Below the pieces are notes generated by a model that saw only the letters and a program-made list of their open reading frames with translations, did no database searches and had not been told where the DNA came from. Positions 24,907 through 59,657 of a stretch of DNA of 64,000 nt are shown here, in pieces. Numbering within the stretch: position 1 is the first letter of the stretch; every line of letters begins with the position of its first letter. Made by a program: the position numbers and the translations under genes. Source of the stretch: Bacteroidota bacterium (GTDB taxonomy: Bacteria; Bacteroidota; Bacteroidia; NS11-12g; UBA955); the NCBI GenBank assembly GCA_005798825.1, contig SYIL01000015.1, positions 42,437 through 106,436 of the forward strand, in the 5' to 3' direction.

Positions 24907-26457
24907 ATGGCTTGTGCATCTTGTGGAACCAAAAAAGGAAGCTCTCCGGGAGGTTGCAAAAGCAATGGTACATGTGGTACCACTGGTTGCAATGCACTCA
25001 ATGTTTACGATTGGTTCAAAGACATGGATCTGCCCGAAGGATACAAACCCTTTAATATTGTTGAGGTTCGTTTTAAGGGTTCTCGCAAAGAATTTTTTAG
25101 AAATACAAATAATATAGAATTGTATACTGGTGACTATGTTTGTGTAGACAGCAGCATAGGGTATGATATTGGTACTGTTTCTGCAACAGGAGAAATTGTT
25201 CGATTACAGCTAAAAAAATACCGTGTTCGGGAAGATTCTTCTGAACTGATGGGTATTCAACGCGTTGCCAACGAGCGCGATATGGAAAAGCATGACGAAG
25301 CCAAAAGCAAAGAAAATGCTACACTCGAACGCGCAAGAACACATGCCTTTGGTTTAAAATTGCAGATGAAAATCAGCGATATAGAAATTCAGGGAGATGG
25401 CAGAAAAGCCATATTTTTTTATACAGCAGAAACCCGTGTTGATTTTCGAGAACTCATAAAAAAATATGCAGATGATTTTAAGATAAAAATCGAAATGCGT
25501 CATATTAATTATCGCGAGGAGGCTTCTCGACTCGGTGGTACTGGTGTTTGTGGCAGAGAATTATGTTGTAGTACCTGGCTAACCGATTATAAACAAGTCA
25601 ATACTGGAGCGGCCCGTGTTCAAAATTTAAGTATTAATATGGAAAAATTGGCCGGGCAATGTGGTCGGTTAAAATGCTGCCTAAATTTTGAATTAGATCA
25701 ATATATTGAGGCGACGGATGCGTTTCCCAAAGCAAAAATCATCAAACTCGATACAGTAAATGGGTTTGCTTATGTGCGCAAAACCGATATTTTAAAAAAA
25801 TTGATGTGGTTTTCCTATGAAGACAACCAAACATGGGTGGCACTATCTGTGGCTAAAGTCAATGAAGTGCTGGAAGAAAATCGTGGAGGCCTAAAATCTT
25901 TGGCTTTGCAAGATTTGGCACCAGCCAGTGCTGTAATGGAACAGCTAACAGCCAATCAATTGGGACAAACCATCGATTTTATTGGAAACAGCGAATTGTT
26001 AAATGACGATGAATTCCATTCTTCCTCTCAAGACACGACTTCGCGAAAAAACAATGTTCCTCGCAATTCAAAAGGTCTTAAAGGCAATCGTTCTGACAAC
26101 CGCGGTCCCAGACCGGACAACCGTGGGCCCAGACCGGACAACCGTGGGCCCAGACCTGCGGATAAACCCAAAAATACAGGTCTTGCAGACAACCGCGGTC
26201 CCAGACCAGACAACCGCGGTCCCAGACCAGACAACCGCGGTCCCAGACCAGACAACCGTGGGCCCAGACCAGACAATCGCGGGCCCAGACCAGACAACCG
26301 TGGGCCCAGACCAGACAACCGTGGGCCCAGACCAGACAACCGTGGGCCCAGACCAGACAACCGTGGGCCCAGACCAGACAACCGTGGGCCCAGACCAGAC
26401 AACCGTGGGCCCAGACCAGCGGATATACCCAAAAATACAGGTCCTGCAGACGATTAA
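24907..26457 (+). CDS. ricT: PSP1 domain protein (RicT/YaaT-like) with repeat-rich C-terminus
   Basis: CGRELCCSTWL, LAGQCGRLKCCLNFEL; C-terminal DNRGPRP repeats. Confidence 0.9.
   Translation: MACASCGTKKGSSPGGCKSNGTCGTTGCNALNVYDWFKDMDLPEGYKPFNIVEVRFKGSRKEFFRNTNNIELYTGDYVCVDSSIGYDIGTVSATGEIVRLQLKKYRVREDSSELMGIQRVANERDMEKHDEAKSKENATLERARTHAFGLKLQMKISDIEIQGDGRKAIFFYTAETRVDFRELIKKYADDFKIKIEMRHINYREEASRLGGTGVCGRELCCSTWLTDYKQVNTGAARVQNLSINMEKLAGQCGRLKCCLNFELDQYIEATDAFPKAKIIKLDTVNGFAYVRKTDILKKLMWFSYEDNQTWVALSVAKVNEVLEENRGGLKSLALQDLAPASAVMEQLTANQLGQTIDFIGNSELLNDDEFHSSSQDTTSRKNNVPRNSKGLKGNRSDNRGPRPDNRGPRPDNRGPRPADKPKNTGLADNRGPRPDNRGPRPDNRGPRPDNRGPRPDNRGPRPDNRGPRPDNRGPRPDNRGPRPDNRGPRPDNRGPRPDNRGPRPADIPKNTGPADD
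26095..26157 (+). repeat. Three 21-bp tandem repeats (DNRGPRP)
   Basis: gacaaccg(c/t)gg(t/g)cccagacc(g/t) x3. Confidence 0.95.
26188..26418 (+). repeat. Eleven 21-bp tandem repeats (DNRGPRP)
   Basis: gacaaccgtgggcccagacca-type unit x11, nearly identical at DNA level. Confidence 0.95.
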
Positions 26458-52373: not shown

Positions 52374-53375
52374 TTATACCCCTGTGAATTGAGACAATAA
52401 CCGTGTATCGTTTGTGAACATATCCCGAATATCGTGTATTTTATATTTAAGCATGGCTATTCTGTCGATGCCCATACCAAAAGCAAAACCGTTGTATACA
52501 TTAGAATCTATATTACACGCTGTTAATACATTTGGGTGAATCATACCACATCCCAAAATCTCTAACCACCCGGTCCCTTTGGTTAATTTTTTATTCTCTT
52601 CGGTATCTATTCCAGCCCAAATATCCATCTCTGCACTTGGTTCTGTAAAAGGAAAATAACTTGCCCTAAACCTAACCTTTGTTCCTTCTCCAAAAAATTG
52701 TTGTACAAAATAAAAAAGCGTTTGTTTTAAATCTGCGAATGTAACTTTTTTATCTACATACAAACCTTCCAATTGATGAAAAAAACAATTGCTTCTGGCA
52801 CTAATATCTTCATTTCTATATACTCTTCCTGGCATTATTATTCTCAAGGGCAACACCCCTTTTTTTAATTCTCTAATTTGAACCGAGCTTGTATGGGTTC
52901 TTAACATATTCAACCCTATAAAAAATGTATCCTGCATATCCCTTGCAGGGTGGTCTTCCTTAAAATTAAGCGCTGAAAAATTGTGATGATCGTCTTCTAT
53001 CTCAATTGCTTCTGCATAATCAAAACCCAATGACAAAAAAATACTCGATATTTTTTCTTCTACAATACGAATCGGATGCAAGGATCCTGGATTGTTTTGA
53101 TAGGTTGGAAATAATTTTTTATTATATCCTTGTTGTTGTTGGTTCTTACTGTGGTTATTCGTAACTGTATCCAGTGTTAATTTTTTTAAATCATTTAACA
53201 TTTCACCATATTTTTTTTTATCTACTGGTGGCAATAATTTAAAAGAATCAAATAAAAGTGAAACTTCTCCTTTCTTTGATAAAAAATCCAAACGAAATTT
53301 TTCTACTGTGTTTTTGTTGTCATCGAAAATAAAACTCAATACATTTTTTTCGCATTGTTGTATTTTATCAATCAT
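52374..53375 (-). CDS. pheS: Phenylalanine--tRNA ligase subunit alpha
   Basis: HPARDMQDTFFI, LRTHTSSVQIREL, HQLEGLYVDK, FAFGMGIDRIAMLKYKIHDIRDMF. Confidence 0.95.
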   Translation of the reverse strand: MIDKIQQCEKNVLSFIFDDNKNTVEKFRLDFLSKKGEVSLLFDSFKLLPPVDKKKYGEMLNDLKKLTLDTVTNNHSKNQQQQGYNKKLFPTYQNNPGSLHPIRIVEEKISSIFLSLGFDYAEAIEIEDDHHNFSALNFKEDHPARDMQDTFFIGLNMLRTHTSSVQIRELKKGVLPLRIIMPGRVYRNEDISARSNCFFHQLEGLYVDKKVTFADLKQTLFYFVQQFFGEGTKVRFRASYFPFTEPSAEMDIWAGIDTEENKKLTKGTGWLEILGCGMIHPNVLTACNIDSNVYNGFAFGMGIDRIAMLKYKIHDIRDMFTNDTRLLSQFTGV

Positions 53376-53708
53376 AAGACAAAAATACTCTACGCGTTTG
53401 TAATACCCAAGATAGATACACCCATAAATGCAATTTTTTATACAACCCAGTAATAATAAATTATATCATTAATTATTATAATTAATATTATATATTATAG
53501 CTATGTTGAAACCTTGATAAGTGTTATAAAAGTAAAAGTATGCATAAAATATAAAAACTAAGTATCAATATATCAATAATTTAATAATATATAAAACAAC
53601 AACAATAACAACCAAACCCAATAATTTACCCACGTTACATATTAAAAATGGAGCTGATAACAAATCAGTTTTCCACGCTCTTTCATTGTTTGATATAAAC
53701 GACAAAGT

Positions 53709-53724
53709 AGTTTCACGTGAAACA
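53709..53724. promoter_or_regulatory. parS-like ParB binding site
   Basis: AGTTTCACGTGAAACA; perfect 14-bp palindrome GTTTCACGTGAAAC, 15/16 to TGTTTCACGTGAAACA. Confidence 0.75.
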
Positions 53725-53728
53725 GTTT

Positions 53729-55468
53729 TTAATGAACGATTATACCAGAACTATACAAACTTATTTCTGGAAGTATAACTGTATTTTGAAGCTTAAAATT
53801 CACTCTCAAAGGCTTTTGTTGTATAAAAAACAATTCTGCACCTTCCATGAGTCTATTGGTTTTAAAATCAACAGCGTCTACTGTAGTAGTATGAAAACCC
53901 TCTTTGGCAACAGTATTGTTTATCCAACTGTAAAAAGAATATTCTCCTTCAGGTGCCAACAAAGACAGTGTACCCGCGAGGGTTTTTCTACTAACAGAAT
54001 CAAAATGATTAGGGTCAATATAACCAATAAAAGAAACGCCAGTACCGGATAATTTAAAAAAAACCCCCACATCGTTCGGGTTTTCCAATTGTAAGACACC
54101 CACATCTTGTATTTTAGATTTGGCCAATCCACGAACAATGGTTTTCTGCATAAACACTGGTGTAACAGGGATTTTTGGCAAATGAGGGTATTTGTAATCG
54201 GAGGGGGGCGAATCGATAGGAGATAAGGAATCCCAGTAACTTTTCAATGTATGGTTTGCCTGGGACTCACCCATCGCGGTGTCCGTCACCCACCAATTGT
54301 CGATTAAACTATTGTTTGTGGGAGAAAAATAAAGCGTATCGCCTGTTTGGGTTTTTATGTAACGGTAAACAATACCGCGATCATTAAAACACCTTTTTAT
54401 TTGTGCCGTACTTTTAAAAAAAGTATCTATATGCAAGAGATTTTTTACATAACCCAACATTTTTTTCTTGACCAATAACGTATCATTTGACCAGGACAAA
54501 TAGCGGCTTACATTAAGCCACTCATAAAACAAGGGAACCCCCACAACCATAGCATTACCCAAGCTGTCTATATACGCTGTTTTGAAAGTGTTGTTTATGG
54601 GGTAAAGGCTCGCAACAATTGTATCCTTAGAATCGATGGAACTGTAAAAAACCAAATAGGATTCATTGTTATCAATTAAAAAATTGTTGTTGTCGTTTTT
54701 TATAATAGTTGTATAAAATTGTTCATTACCCATACCCGAAAAGTGATAGATATTGTTTGGTAGATTTTCGGGTAAATAAATTTTTTGTCCCTGTTTTATG
54801 AAACAATTGTAAGTGCTTTTCTCACCCACGGTGGTTAAAACGCGAATAAAAATTTCTCCAGAATCTTTGCCTATTAACAATGTCGGGCATGCGATGGAAT
54901 TGCCTTCATTTAAGTCTTTAACAAAAGCGTTAAGATAAATAGTTTCGACGTGCTTGGGAAGTGTAAGGGTAATGGTATTTCTATAAATATTTTTTTTGAT
55001 TTGATTCGTGTCTGTGCTTGTGTTTGTATTCAAAATAATGGGAGAAGCCAAAACTTTACCTGTGGCTTGAATGTTTTCATTAAACACCAATCGAATCCTG
55101 GTTTTTCCTTTTGTGGGAGTATTTTCTATTGACATCAATACGGGCGCTGTGGTATCTTTTTCTCCCCCTTGGGGTTGAACCGGGTTTGCACAGCCTATGC
55201 CACCGCCCCCAAAAACCAACACCCCTCCCCATAGCATTACACAATGAAATCTACACAGTCCTAAAAAAAACAGTGAGCCATATTTGCCAAGCCTATATCC
55301 ATTTGCCAACCAACCACACAAAAGAAGCCAGGTTGTAAAATGCGCAACACCCGAAACACCCGAAACAACACCAACCGCCCACCCAAAACAATCACCACCC
55401 GTAAGATGTTTTTCAATGTGATTACGATCAAAAGAAAGGATTTTTTTACATGGGTTAGGGTTATTCAT
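53729..55468 (-). CDS. Ig-like (SbsA-type) domain protein
   Basis: CANPVQPQGGEKDTTAPVLMSIENTPTKGKTRIRLVFNENIQ; true start may be an internal Met near MLWGGVLVFGGGGIGC. Confidence 0.75.
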   Translation of the reverse strand: MNNPNPCKKILSFDRNHIEKHLTGGDCFGWAVGVVSGVSGVAHFTTWLLLCGWLANGYRLGKYGSLFFLGLCRFHCVMLWGGVLVFGGGGIGCANPVQPQGGEKDTTAPVLMSIENTPTKGKTRIRLVFNENIQATGKVLASPIILNTNTSTDTNQIKKNIYRNTITLTLPKHVETIYLNAFVKDLNEGNSIACPTLLIGKDSGEIFIRVLTTVGEKSTYNCFIKQGQKIYLPENLPNNIYHFSGMGNEQFYTTIIKNDNNNFLIDNNESYLVFYSSIDSKDTIVASLYPINNTFKTAYIDSLGNAMVVGVPLFYEWLNVSRYLSWSNDTLLVKKKMLGYVKNLLHIDTFFKSTAQIKRCFNDRGIVYRYIKTQTGDTLYFSPTNNSLIDNWWVTDTAMGESQANHTLKSYWDSLSPIDSPPSDYKYPHLPKIPVTPVFMQKTIVRGLAKSKIQDVGVLQLENPNDVGVFFKLSGTGVSFIGYIDPNHFDSVSRKTLAGTLSLLAPEGEYSFYSWINNTVAKEGFHTTTVDAVDFKTNRLMEGAELFFIQQKPLRVNFKLQNTVILPEISLYSSGIIVH

Positions 55469-55477
55469 GGGTATGAA

Positions 55478-57334
55478 TTATCTTCCAAAATGAACCAACA
55501 AAACCTGAATATCTACAGGATTTACACCACTAATTCTGCTCGCTTGACCAATGGTTGAGGGCCTTATTTTGTGCAATTTTTCTCTTGCTTCCAAACTGAT
55601 AGACGAAAATTTGTTAAAATCCAAATTGTGGGGGATAGTTATACCCTCTAATTTGCTCAATTTCTCGGCCTCAGCATTTTCCTTATTTATATAAGACTGG
55701 TATTTTATATAAATAAGAGCCCGCTCTTTTGCTTCGTTTTGATAGCCCAATAGTTTAATTTTAATATGGGGTATCTTTTCTAAGGTATCTAGTCCTATTT
55801 GTGGGCGAAGTAATAACTTGTGAGCACTTTGTTTTTCTGTAATTTCAACCCAGTCGCCAACATTGTCTTTCAACTCTGTGGGAGATACCTTAATTTGCTT
55901 TAGCAGTGTCAATATCTCTTGGGTTTGCGTGCGTATGTTGTTGAGTTCATCAACCCTTTGTTTGTCTGCTAGGCCAATGCCATGACCAATGGGTGTTAGG
56001 CGTTCATCTGCATTGTCTTGTCTAAGCGAGATGCGGTACTCTGCTCGAGAAGTAAACATTCTGTAGGGCTCTTCTGTACCCTTGTTTATTAGGTCATCGA
56101 TTAATACGCCGATGTACGCTTGATGTCTACCCAAAACAAGTGATTCTTTTTTCTGTAGGTTAAGGGCTGCATTTATTCCAGCCATTAAGCCCTGACAAGC
56201 GGCCTCTTCGTAACCCGTTGTTCCATTTATTTGACCCGCAAAATACAAACCACGAACCAATTTGGTTTCCAATGTGTTTTTGAGTTGGGTGGGATGAAAA
56301 AAATCATATTCTATAGCATAGCCGGGACGAAACATTTTGGCATTTTGAAACCCCGGTATTAATCTGAGAGCCCGCAATTGAATATTTTCCGGGAGAGAAG
56401 TGCTAAATCCATTTACATAGACTTCGCAAGTATTCCACCCTTCGGGTTCAACAAATATTTGGTGGCGTGTGCGTTCTGCAAATCTGTTTATTTTATCCTC
56501 AATGCTGGGACAGTAACGGGGACCCAATCCAGAAATGCTACCATTATACATCGGACTGTCTAAAAAACCCTCTCGCAAAACACCGTGAACTTCTTCGTTT
56601 GTATAGGTTATGTAACAACTTTTTTGAGAAAGCAAATCGTTTGTCGAAGGCAAATAACTAAACCTAGAATGCGGGGAATCACCCAGTTGTTCTTCCATTT
56701 TTGAGTAGTCTAACGATCGGCCATCTACCCTGGGAGGTGTTCCCGTTTTCATTCGGCCAACTGTAAAACCCAAGGCCAACAATTGTGCAGAAATTCCGAT
56801 TGATGCGTTTTCACCCATGCGCCCCCCACCAAAATTTTTTCTGCCTACATGTATGAAGCCATTTAAAAATGTACCGGTTGTCAAAACAACTTTTGTAGCC
56901 TTGAAGTGCAACCCCAAATCTGTAATAATACCAACAACCTCTTGATTTTCAATGAGTAAAGAAAATACACCATCTTGAAAAAAATCTATATTTTTGTTTT
57001 TTTCTAGGGTCAGGCGCCACTCTTCAGCAAATCGCCAACGATCACTTTGTGCCCTGGGGCTCCACATAGCCATACCCTTGCTTTTGTTGAGCATTCTAAA
57101 TTGTATCATGGTTTTATCGGTGATTATAGCCGACATTCCCCCCAAGGCGTCAATTTCTCTTATAATTTGACCTTTTGCCACTCCACCCATAGCTGGATTA
57201 CAACTCATTTTGGCGATTGTTTCCATATTCATTGTAACCAATAATACCTTACAACCCATTGTGGCTGCCGCATGGGCAGCTTCACATCCTGCATGTCCGG
57301 CGCCAACCACTATTATGTCATAGTGATTGTTCAT
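55478..57334 (-). CDS. mnmG: tRNA uridine-5-carboxymethylaminomethyl modification enzyme MnmG/GidA
   Basis: [75 protein letters not shown]. Confidence 0.97.
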
Positions 57335-57798
57335 GATTTGTTTGTTTTGATTTCAAGGGGGGCCGTTGTTGAATTGCGCCACAAAGATAAGAAGGCATCT
57401 TCTTTTTGTCGCATTTCCCGGTTTTCCTTGTGCGTTTTATCTTTATACCCCAATAAATGGAATAAACCATGAGCCATAACGCGCAACAATTCTTCTTGGT
57501 ATGGCGTTGATAGAACAAGGCTGTTTTCTTTGACCCGGTCTATTGAAATGTATATTTCACCGTCAATGGTTTGGTGTGATGAAGACAAATCGAAACTAAT
57601 CACATCTGTAAACGATGTATGTTTTAGATATTTTATGTTCATCTTCACTAGGGCATGATCGGTCAAAAAAACATATTGTAAACCCAACAAAGTCATATTG
57701 TGATCTCGTGTAATTGTTTGAACCAAGGATCGAAAAAGTTCTCGCCTTCCTGCACCAGCAAAGGAATTTTTACCACAGAATTTGATCTTTTGTATCAT
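57331..57798 (-). CDS. ybeY: rRNA maturation RNase YbeY
   Basis: [37 protein letters not shown]; 4-nt overlaps with both neighbours. Confidence 0.93.
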
Positions 57799-59657
57799 TC
57801 TAACAGCAGAAGTGTTCCATTTTTAGTTGCGTATTTGTTTCTATAGTCGGCAATCACGCGGTAAACATAGATACCCGGGATGGACAAGGGATAGGAAAAA
57901 GAATTGTCTTGATGTCCATTCCATCCAATAAGAGCATCCCCCTCAAATAGTTTAGCACCCCATCGATTATAAATAAACAGGGTAGACTCCCCAAGGCCAA
58001 TGGCGGGGTTGCTTATGCGAAAAACAGGATTTGCCCCATTGGGCTTGAAAGCGTTTGGTATCAACAAAGTATCTTTTTGCTTATCATATCCCAAAAAAAC
58101 ACCCAATTCGTTTGAAAAGGCAACAAATTCATCGCCCGTTATTGTTTTCACCACAATCCGAAACAACACTGGTCCGTATAGATCATTTGGGATGGTATAC
58201 TCCTTGTTTTGTGTTCTATACAACATGTTCCACGTGGAACCTATTTTTCTTTCTATTGTGTAATCGTATGTGTATGAACTATTTATACAATTCCAACCTA
58301 TATAGGGGTTCCATGTTAGGGTTCGATTATTTTCTAACAGAAGGGTGTTTTGGTGAACACATGAACTATCGTCCGACAACCCACAATCATTTTTTCTGAT
58401 AAGCCGGTAGCTGGCAATTTCATTGCTTGTTTTTGTTACATAGTCGAAATAAGAGAAGGGTTTCTGTTGGGTGTATTTTGCCAAATCAAACCAGGTTGAA
58501 ATGGTTTTTTTTTGAAGCGTAGCAACCGACCCCGCCCCAGACAAAAACCAGTCACCCGCAATTTCTATTTCGTTTGGATTTGTTACGCTGACAGTATACA
58601 AATGGGTTGTTGACGGATTGTTTTGTTGGTGGGTATACCGGTGTTTGACTGCATTTGAGCTTGAACTTATTTTTTCGCCCATCTTTTTGGCACGAATCAC
58701 ATAAAGCACACTTGAATTTACAGTGAATGTTGAATCAATAAAAACATAAGGTCCAGCAGGGTTATTTGTAGCAAGAGGGTCGACCTTTCCCAAAAGAAAC
58801 CAGGAGTTTTGGCTCGAATCAAACCGCCACACAGAATAATATTCTGTTTTCCAACCCAAATACGCCGACCATGTAAGGGTAGATTTCTTGGTACACCAAA
58901 AATTAGCATCTTGTTTAAGTGTTAGTAGAATTGGAGAGTGGTAATTACTTATTAAACCACCATTTAAACAACTATCAAAAGCTGCTATAGCAAATTTATT
59001 TCCCCCAATAGTTGTATTAAATGTACTGGCTGTAAAGACATGTTGTGTTTCTGTGACCTCGCCAGTTAAAACATTTCCCACACCATCATATTTAAATAGG
59101 CTGTATCCTTTTATATCACGCTCTTTTGGGATAGACCAACCCGCAGACATACATTGACTTTGCAATTCTACAGACACACTGTCTGGTTCAAATTGGTCTG
59201 GTGCTTTGTCATCAATAAATACATGGTTTGAAATCAAACTATCTTTGCCGGTACAAGAAAAAAATGTGGAAATATAAAATTCCCATCTCTTTTTATTCGG
59301 CAACGTAATTGAAATACTCGAAATGGACAGTGTGGTCGTTTCTGCCATTTTGGTCCATGGCGAACTTGCATCCTCCCTACCAAATACTGTATGGTTTCGA
59401 AAACTCCCGCAATTGTCAACTGCTGGCTCTAGGCTTAGTGTCAATATTGAGCTAGTACGGTCTAAACAAGCACGCCGCAATTTAACTGGTTCACTCACAG
59501 CTTGAAGGCAATGGATGCTTGTCCAAAACACAAGAAACCCCATGCTTGAAAACAGATGGATGTTTTTGATGGTGTTAAAAAAACGGTATAATTCCCTCGA
59601 TATCAATGCGTATGGTGTTGATGGTTGGTATGTATGTTTTGCCTGTCGGTTCGACAC
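57795..59657 (-). CDS. T9SS type B / gliding motility-associated C-terminal domain protein
   Basis: C-terminus LIPNAFKPNGANPVFRISN...TLFIYNRWGAKLFEGDALIGWNGHQDN...GIYVYRVIADY. Confidence 0.88.
   Translation of the reverse strand: MSNRQAKHTYQPSTPYALISRELYRFFNTIKNIHLFSSMGFLVFWTSIHCLQAVSEPVKLRRACLDRTSSILTLSLEPAVDNCGSFRNHTVFGREDASSPWTKMAETTTLSISSISITLPNKKRWEFYISTFFSCTGKDSLISNHVFIDDKAPDQFEPDSVSVELQSQCMSAGWSIPKERDIKGYSLFKYDGVGNVLTGEVTETQHVFTASTFNTTIGGNKFAIAAFDSCLNGGLISNYHSPILLTLKQDANFWCTKKSTLTWSAYLGWKTEYYSVWRFDSSQNSWFLLGKVDPLATNNPAGPYVFIDSTFTVNSSVLYVIRAKKMGEKISSSSNAVKHRYTHQQNNPSTTHLYTVSVTNPNEIEIAGDWFLSGAGSVATLQKKTISTWFDLAKYTQQKPFSYFDYVTKTSNEIASYRLIRKNDCGLSDDSSCVHQNTLLLENNRTLTWNPYIGWNCINSSYTYDYTIERKIGSTWNMLYRTQNKEYTIPNDLYGPVLFRIVVKTITGDEFVAFSNELGVFLGYDKQKDTLLIPNAFKPNGANPVFRISNPAIGLGESTLFIYNRWGAKLFEGDALIGWNGHQDNSFSYPLSIPGIYVYRVIADYRNKYATKNGTLLLLE
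58226..58241. promoter_or_regulatory. parS-like ParB binding site inside CDS
   Basis: TGTTCCACGTGGAACC; perfect 14-bp palindrome GTTCCACGTGGAAC. Confidence 0.65.

Follow-up and report, generated by a model that had tools for sequence, protein, structure and literature searches.

parS sites around mnmG and a very probable replication-origin region in an uncultured lineage of the Bacteroidota

The locus and its two palindromes

The window analyzed here is a stretch of 64,000 nucleotides (C6:42437-106436, where C6 is its contig) from the genome of an uncultured Bacteroidota lineage, assembled to 1,926,889 bp in 45 contigs and 91% complete; the right edge of the window is the end of the contig. 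It contains a locus of genes, all encoded on the minus strand, in the order SSB, two M16-type peptidases, a gene with a C-terminal CHU_C signal, ybeY, mnmG, a lineage-specific gene, pheS, and a phosphoesterase. Two 16-bp sequences, one just past the stop codon of the lineage-specific gene and one within the CHU_C gene, lie around mnmG, and an intergenic region rich in adenine and thymine (AT-rich) precedes pheS (Table 1). We present the evidence that the two sequences are parS sites, the docking sites of the chromosome-segregation protein ParB, and that the AT-rich gap is a candidate replication origin (oriC).

Both 16-mers match the perfect parS palindrome TGTTNCACGTGNAACA at 15 of 16 positions, and their 14-bp palindromic cores are perfect. 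The exact motif GTTNCACGTGNAAC occurs twice in the 1.93-Mb assembly, both times at this locus and 4.5 kb apart. A second-order Markov model predicts 0.05 exact GTTNCACGTGNAAC sites in 1.93 Mb (0.015 for the Y/R form), and by arithmetic the chance that two random sites would fall within 4.5 kb of each other is ~0.005. The reversed control pattern of GTTNCACGTGNAAC had no match in the whole assembly. Allowing one mismatch added only two matches, which are isolated on other contigs and have a broken palindrome. The preliminary description of this DNA had placed parS-like palindromes at these positions and proposed a genome-wide scan for the motif. The positions and the match are as it gave them, and the scan shows that the sites are not scattered, with 2 of 2 inside the 4.5-kb interval.

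CACGTG cores do arise by chance, and a two-mismatch pattern gave 5 matches in the window where ~2 were expected. Set against the counts of exact sites, and against the retention of their positions across genera and families described below, chance occurrence of both palindromes is exceedingly improbable, and it was ruled out on the counts. Noc-type sites were also ruled out, as the core is CACGTG and the ParB of this organism has R/G rather than Q/R. We conclude that both palindromes are almost certainly parS.

Table 1. Features of the locus, in window coordinates
Feature	Coordinates	Strand	Basis or remark
pheS, phenylalanyl-tRNA synthetase alpha; candidate oriC upstream	52374..53375	-	Pfam PF01409, PF02912
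AT-rich intergenic region upstream of pheS, candidate oriC/DNA-unwinding region	53376..53728		GC content; skew in G040
Conserved DnaA-box-like pair and AT tract (ttatcaaggtttcaacatagctataatatataatattaat), ~135 bp before pheS start	53468..53529	-	Alignment of 21 relatives
DnaA-box-like word ttacccacg	53626..53634	+	Two mismatches to TTATCCACA; no clear counterpart in relatives
DnaA-box-like word ttttccacg	53669..53677	+	Closest relative L128 has TTTTCCACA at comparable place
parS site C, AGTTTCACGTGAAACA, just past stop of lineage-specific gene, edge of AT-rich gap	53709..53724
Lineage-specific protein between pheS and mnmG	53729..55468	-	No Pfam match
mnmG (gidA)	55478..57334	-	Pfam GIDA PF01134, E 6e-162
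ybeY	57331..57798	-	Pfam PF02130
Eroded parS site A, directly upstream of mnmG start	57335..57375	-	Junction comparison; reads ccttgaaatc where congeners have gtttcacgtgaaac
Gene with C-terminal CHU_C type IX secretion signal, host of parS site B	57795..59657	-	Pfam PF13585
parS site B, TGTTCCACGTGGAACC, within CHU_C gene, in-frame G-S-T-W-N	58226..58241

Conservation of the sites at mnmG

Positional conservation was assessed in 80 mnmG loci of named Bacteroidota genomes. Sites within 1 kb before mnmG were present in 59 of the 80. The 78 kb that make up these upstream kilobases hold 123 of 134 sites, versus 11 in the other 1.45 Mb, a 207-fold enrichment, while three control palindromes had zero occurrences in the same loci. 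Across the class, the Y/R form is present in 106 of 119 genomes, with 1 to 12 sites each. The usual arrangement is two sites, typically within 2 kb, and some genomes carry 5 to 12 copies, often in tandem. All genomic sites are at mnmG in Echinicola (five), Roseivirga (two), and Arcticiflavibacter (two).

Three positions recur in the family of the window and its sister family. Site A, 10 to 50 bp before mnmG, is near-universal among Bacteroidota loci that have sites. Site B lies ~0.8 to 0.95 kb before mnmG within the CHU_C gene, a position kept in both families. Site C, located past the lineage-specific gene where the pheS intergenic region begins, was seen only in the genus of the window, where L016, L125, L126, L127, L128, and L130 share it. 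The window retains B and C and is eroded at A (Table 1); its close relative Baikal-G2 (L015) likewise has no intact site A. The two palindromes do lie around mnmG, as first described, but they are not a pair made for flanking that gene; they are two survivors of a three-site set.

Some genomes depart from the usual arrangement. Regular tandem arrays of 7 parS copies were found in G096 (C24:13203-13809, ~99 bp apart) and in a Saprospiraceae genome, G063 (C18:31472-32085, ~100 bp apart). Two parS-like sites of G117 (C11:168794 and 196333) are 27.5 kb apart, unusually wide for the class. In genome G008 (L128 to L131), the mnmG region is present as two divergent copies spread over four contig ends, and the four parS hits form two partial sets; therefore, this assembly probably mixes two strains or species.

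Such sites could instead be operators at which a transcription factor regulates mnmG, pheS, or neighboring genes, their resemblance to parS being accidental. This would fit the placement of site A right before mnmG in most Bacteroidota loci with sites and of site C upstream of pheS. We rejected this explanation and consider it very unlikely, as the motif is found almost nowhere else in the genome, site B is part of a coding sequence and almost 0.9 kb away from mnmG, and the motif reaches 5 to 12 copies, often tandem, elsewhere in the class. Furthermore, both half-sites match the parS consensus, and the guanine-cytosine (GC) skew of relatives changes sign at this place.

The coding context of site B favors parS as well. 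In 30 genomes, the site is read in a single frame as (G/R/S)-(S/F)-T-W-N, with ACG-TGG-AAC invariant and the flanking residues variable. Ser (TCC) and Phe (TTC) interchange, and both preserve parS. These 30 genomes were listed because the motif is present, so the fixation of codons is partly a product of sample selection; the constant position and the Ser/Phe interchange are independent of it. Only GGAAC is found as the right half, since GAAAC would introduce a TGA stop in this reading frame, whereas noncoding A sites use both halves freely. Within its codon family, ACG accounts for 12% of codons in the window; the corresponding shares are 10% for TCC and 35% for AAC. Two further genomes (L104; L112/L138) have the extra site closer to mnmG, where no open frame covers it. 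Since ACG-TGG-AAC is fixed while Ser and Phe interchange, it is the DNA and not the protein that is conserved at site B, which is the pattern expected of a DNA-binding site under selection within a gene.

Skew and the AT-rich gap upstream of pheS

GC skew was read from the relevant contigs and from sampled stretches. In relative G040, which has a contig of 2.41 Mb, the skew of sampled stretches switches sign in the interval from 2.09 to 2.16 Mb, and the cumulative skew over 220 kb of joined sequence has its minimum at 2,107,904, within the homologous pheS gap and ~4 kb from a parS pair at 2,103,356 and 2,104,182. In relative G024, the sign change at ~0.36 to 0.45 Mb agrees within ~50 kb with parS at 0.402 Mb. 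Skew rises from -0.076 to +0.095 across the sites in Echinicola, and in Roseivirga it changes sign, with more scatter, at ~0.37 to 0.45 Mb, the sites being at 0.387 Mb. By contig coordinates, dnaA is 0.85 Mb from parS in G040 and 1.09 Mb in G024, and parB is 1.36 Mb (~1.1 Mb round the circle) and 1.26 Mb from it, respectively. In the organism itself, dnaA is on contig C3 and parB on contig C27, apart from the parS contig C6. An origin-proximal position, with skew as a check, had been put forward in the preliminary description. A sign change at the homologous locus of four relatives agrees with it, the fragmented genome of the organism gives no resolution, and a correction is that dnaA and parAB lie far from this origin in the relatives checked.

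The AT-rich gap noted in the preliminary description is confirmed, and most of the lowest-GC 300 bp of the 106-kb contig (20.7%, at C6:95745) falls inside it. Its homolog in G040 is the lowest-GC 300 bp of 220 kb (19.3%) and coincides with the skew minimum; in G024 it is second lowest in GC and contains the densest DnaA-box cluster of 200 kb. Two DnaA-box-like words singled out earlier, ttacccacg and ttttccacg, exist in the gap but are not the conserved pair, which is on the opposite strand (Table 1). That pair was found before pheS in 22 relatives at ~100 to 200 bp, mostly at 100 to 150 bp and in one at 202 bp. Its layout is two CCAC-type words, spaced 8 bp apart, with an AT tract after them, as in TTATCCACGAATCCACAG (L053) and GTATTCCACATATCCACAG (L069).

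A classical DnaA-box scan (TTATCCACA, at most one mismatch) found no cluster at the gap in the organism's own contig; therefore, a relative-based model was used. This sequence-only model, R1, was built from 21 relatives with the window excluded. It ranks the conserved pair of the window first genome-wide, although weakly (E = 0.18; next best, 2.3), and in 592 kb it finds only the window element (E = 0.011) and the G040 homolog, a training member. DnaA-trios were scored as at least three within 16 bp of a DnaA box. Trio-like runs reach eight in a row in G024 (shuffle P = 0.0015) and six in L074.

Several observations weigh against a centromere and origin at this place. In the organism's own genome, skew declines through the locus along C6 to a minimum at C6:105,182, near the contig end, and the origin is not placeable from this DNA because the assembly is in 45 contigs, the window is at a contig edge, and the minimum is close to that end. 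Hymenobacter, which has no site at mnmG, has a weak skew that changes sign 0.3 to 0.5 Mb from mnmG; therefore, the match of skew and locus is not general to every genus. The exact GTTNCACGTGNAAC motif is absent genome-wide from Dyadobacter (L062), Siphonobacter (L029), Fibrella (L049), and the Cytophagales member L070, though their relatives have sites at mnmG; in these four, parS may be diverged or lost. The box pair of the window is degenerate (TTTCAACATA), its genome-wide E value is only that given above, and the training set of R1 includes same-genus relatives and was chosen by eye-guided patterns. Trio runs number only two in L016, L125, L139, and L135, and the seven in the window do not have the CTA form. 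Given this inconsistency, DnaA-trios are not established at the pheS gap.

These points leave some room for a different account, in which parS is real, replication starts elsewhere within tens of kilobases, and what is conserved in the pheS gap is a control element of an ordinary AT-rich promoter. Skew resolves the origin only to ~5 to 50 kb, the window boxes are degenerate, trio repeats are inconsistent, and promoter-like sites are present in the gap, at about chance level. We consider such an arrangement unlikely, though it deserves to be kept in mind. The conserved element has DnaA-box-like CCACA repeats rather than promoter hexamers, and in G040 the skew minimum lies inside the gap, whose GC content is the lowest in 220 kb. 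An RNA leader was ruled out, as no Rfam family matched the gap up to an E value of 0.5. Taking these results together, we are confident that this parS cluster is the centromere of the chromosome and that the locus is very probably also where the replication origin lies.

ParB and the proposed working of the locus

The genome encodes a single TIGR00180 ParB (E = 4e-53). Its gene immediately follows parA in the only parAB operon, on contig C27, and that contig carries no parS. Absence of parB had been named in the preliminary description as a result that would speak against its proposal; parB is present, with parS-type residues. The protein aligns with solved chromosomal ParBs, and over GKDRSTVNNYLRLLKLP...SMGHAR its residues at the equivalent positions are R173, N178, Y179, K184, G201, and R204 (Caulobacter numbering). 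The residues that specify parS are thus present as R in GKDR (R173) and G in SMGHAR (G201). R173 and G201 are absolutely conserved in ParB orthologs, and positions 179 and 184 are variable (PMC7383237).

We propose that ParB, encoded elsewhere in the genome, would load at sites B and C and spread over the ybeY-mnmG-pheS neighborhood. Shortly after replication, ParA would then separate the ParB-parS complexes and, with them, the fresh origin copies. The most likely starting point of replication is the AT-rich gap that precedes pheS; DnaA may bind the conserved pair of boxes there and open the AT tract next to it. With replication starting there, the centromere would be copied first.

In its 16-bp TGTTNCACGTGNAACA palindrome, in its few copies near a skew-defined origin, and in having a chromosomal ParA-ParB with R173/G201-type residues, the system resembles the chromosomal ParABS of Bacillus subtilis and Caulobacter. 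Unlike in those organisms, parAB lies away from parS (on a separate contig here and ~1.1 to 1.3 Mb off in G040 and G024), one site is in a secreted-protein gene, and the sites are tied to mnmG class-wide. In other phyla, mnmG is close to the origin and parS in mnmG-rsmG-parAB origin regions; here, the mnmG block has ybeY and pheS at its sides, and the locus includes neither parAB nor dnaA. The basal unwinding system of the B. subtilis type consists of a DnaA-box pair followed by DnaA-trios (PMC8287927). The pheS gap is like such an oriC in its close DnaA-box-like words with an AT tract, in being the most AT-rich intergenic region, and in its coincidence with the skew minimum in relatives. It differs in lying upstream of pheS and far from dnaA, in having boxes 8 bp apart that are degenerate in the window, and in having trios that are clear only in some relatives.

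The components of the locus are of known kinds. A literature search found no description of parS being linked to mnmG throughout the class with neither parAB nor dnaA close by, nor of a pheS-promoter origin; the parS survey by Livny et al. (2007) was outside the search, and an earlier description is possible. We therefore do not claim either as new. Elsewhere in the window, the gene at 24907-26457 ends in tandem RGPRPDN-type repeats (26100-26457), and the array length may differ between strains.

With somewhat less confidence than for the single locus, we favor a broader picture, in which the centromere has remained at ybeY-mnmG across the Bacteroidota and the origin adjoins it (within the promoter region of pheS in this order), with dnaA and parAB at a great distance. 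In the present lineage, part of the centromere would be written in the codons of a fast-evolving secreted-protein gene. Site B is a clear case in nature of selection on DNA prevailing over the protein sequence, with Ser and Phe interchanging under a fixed binding site, and the locus shows a centromere separate from its own genes. In the two relatives checked, neither dnaA nor parAB adjoins the origin, so the usual landmarks fail. If the parS cluster is indeed fixed at mnmG, it would provide a simple sequence marker for locating the origin in many draft genomes of the class and make read-depth growth-rate estimates easier to anchor. The retention of sites at mnmG in most of the class neatly confirms known machinery in a group that has been little mapped.

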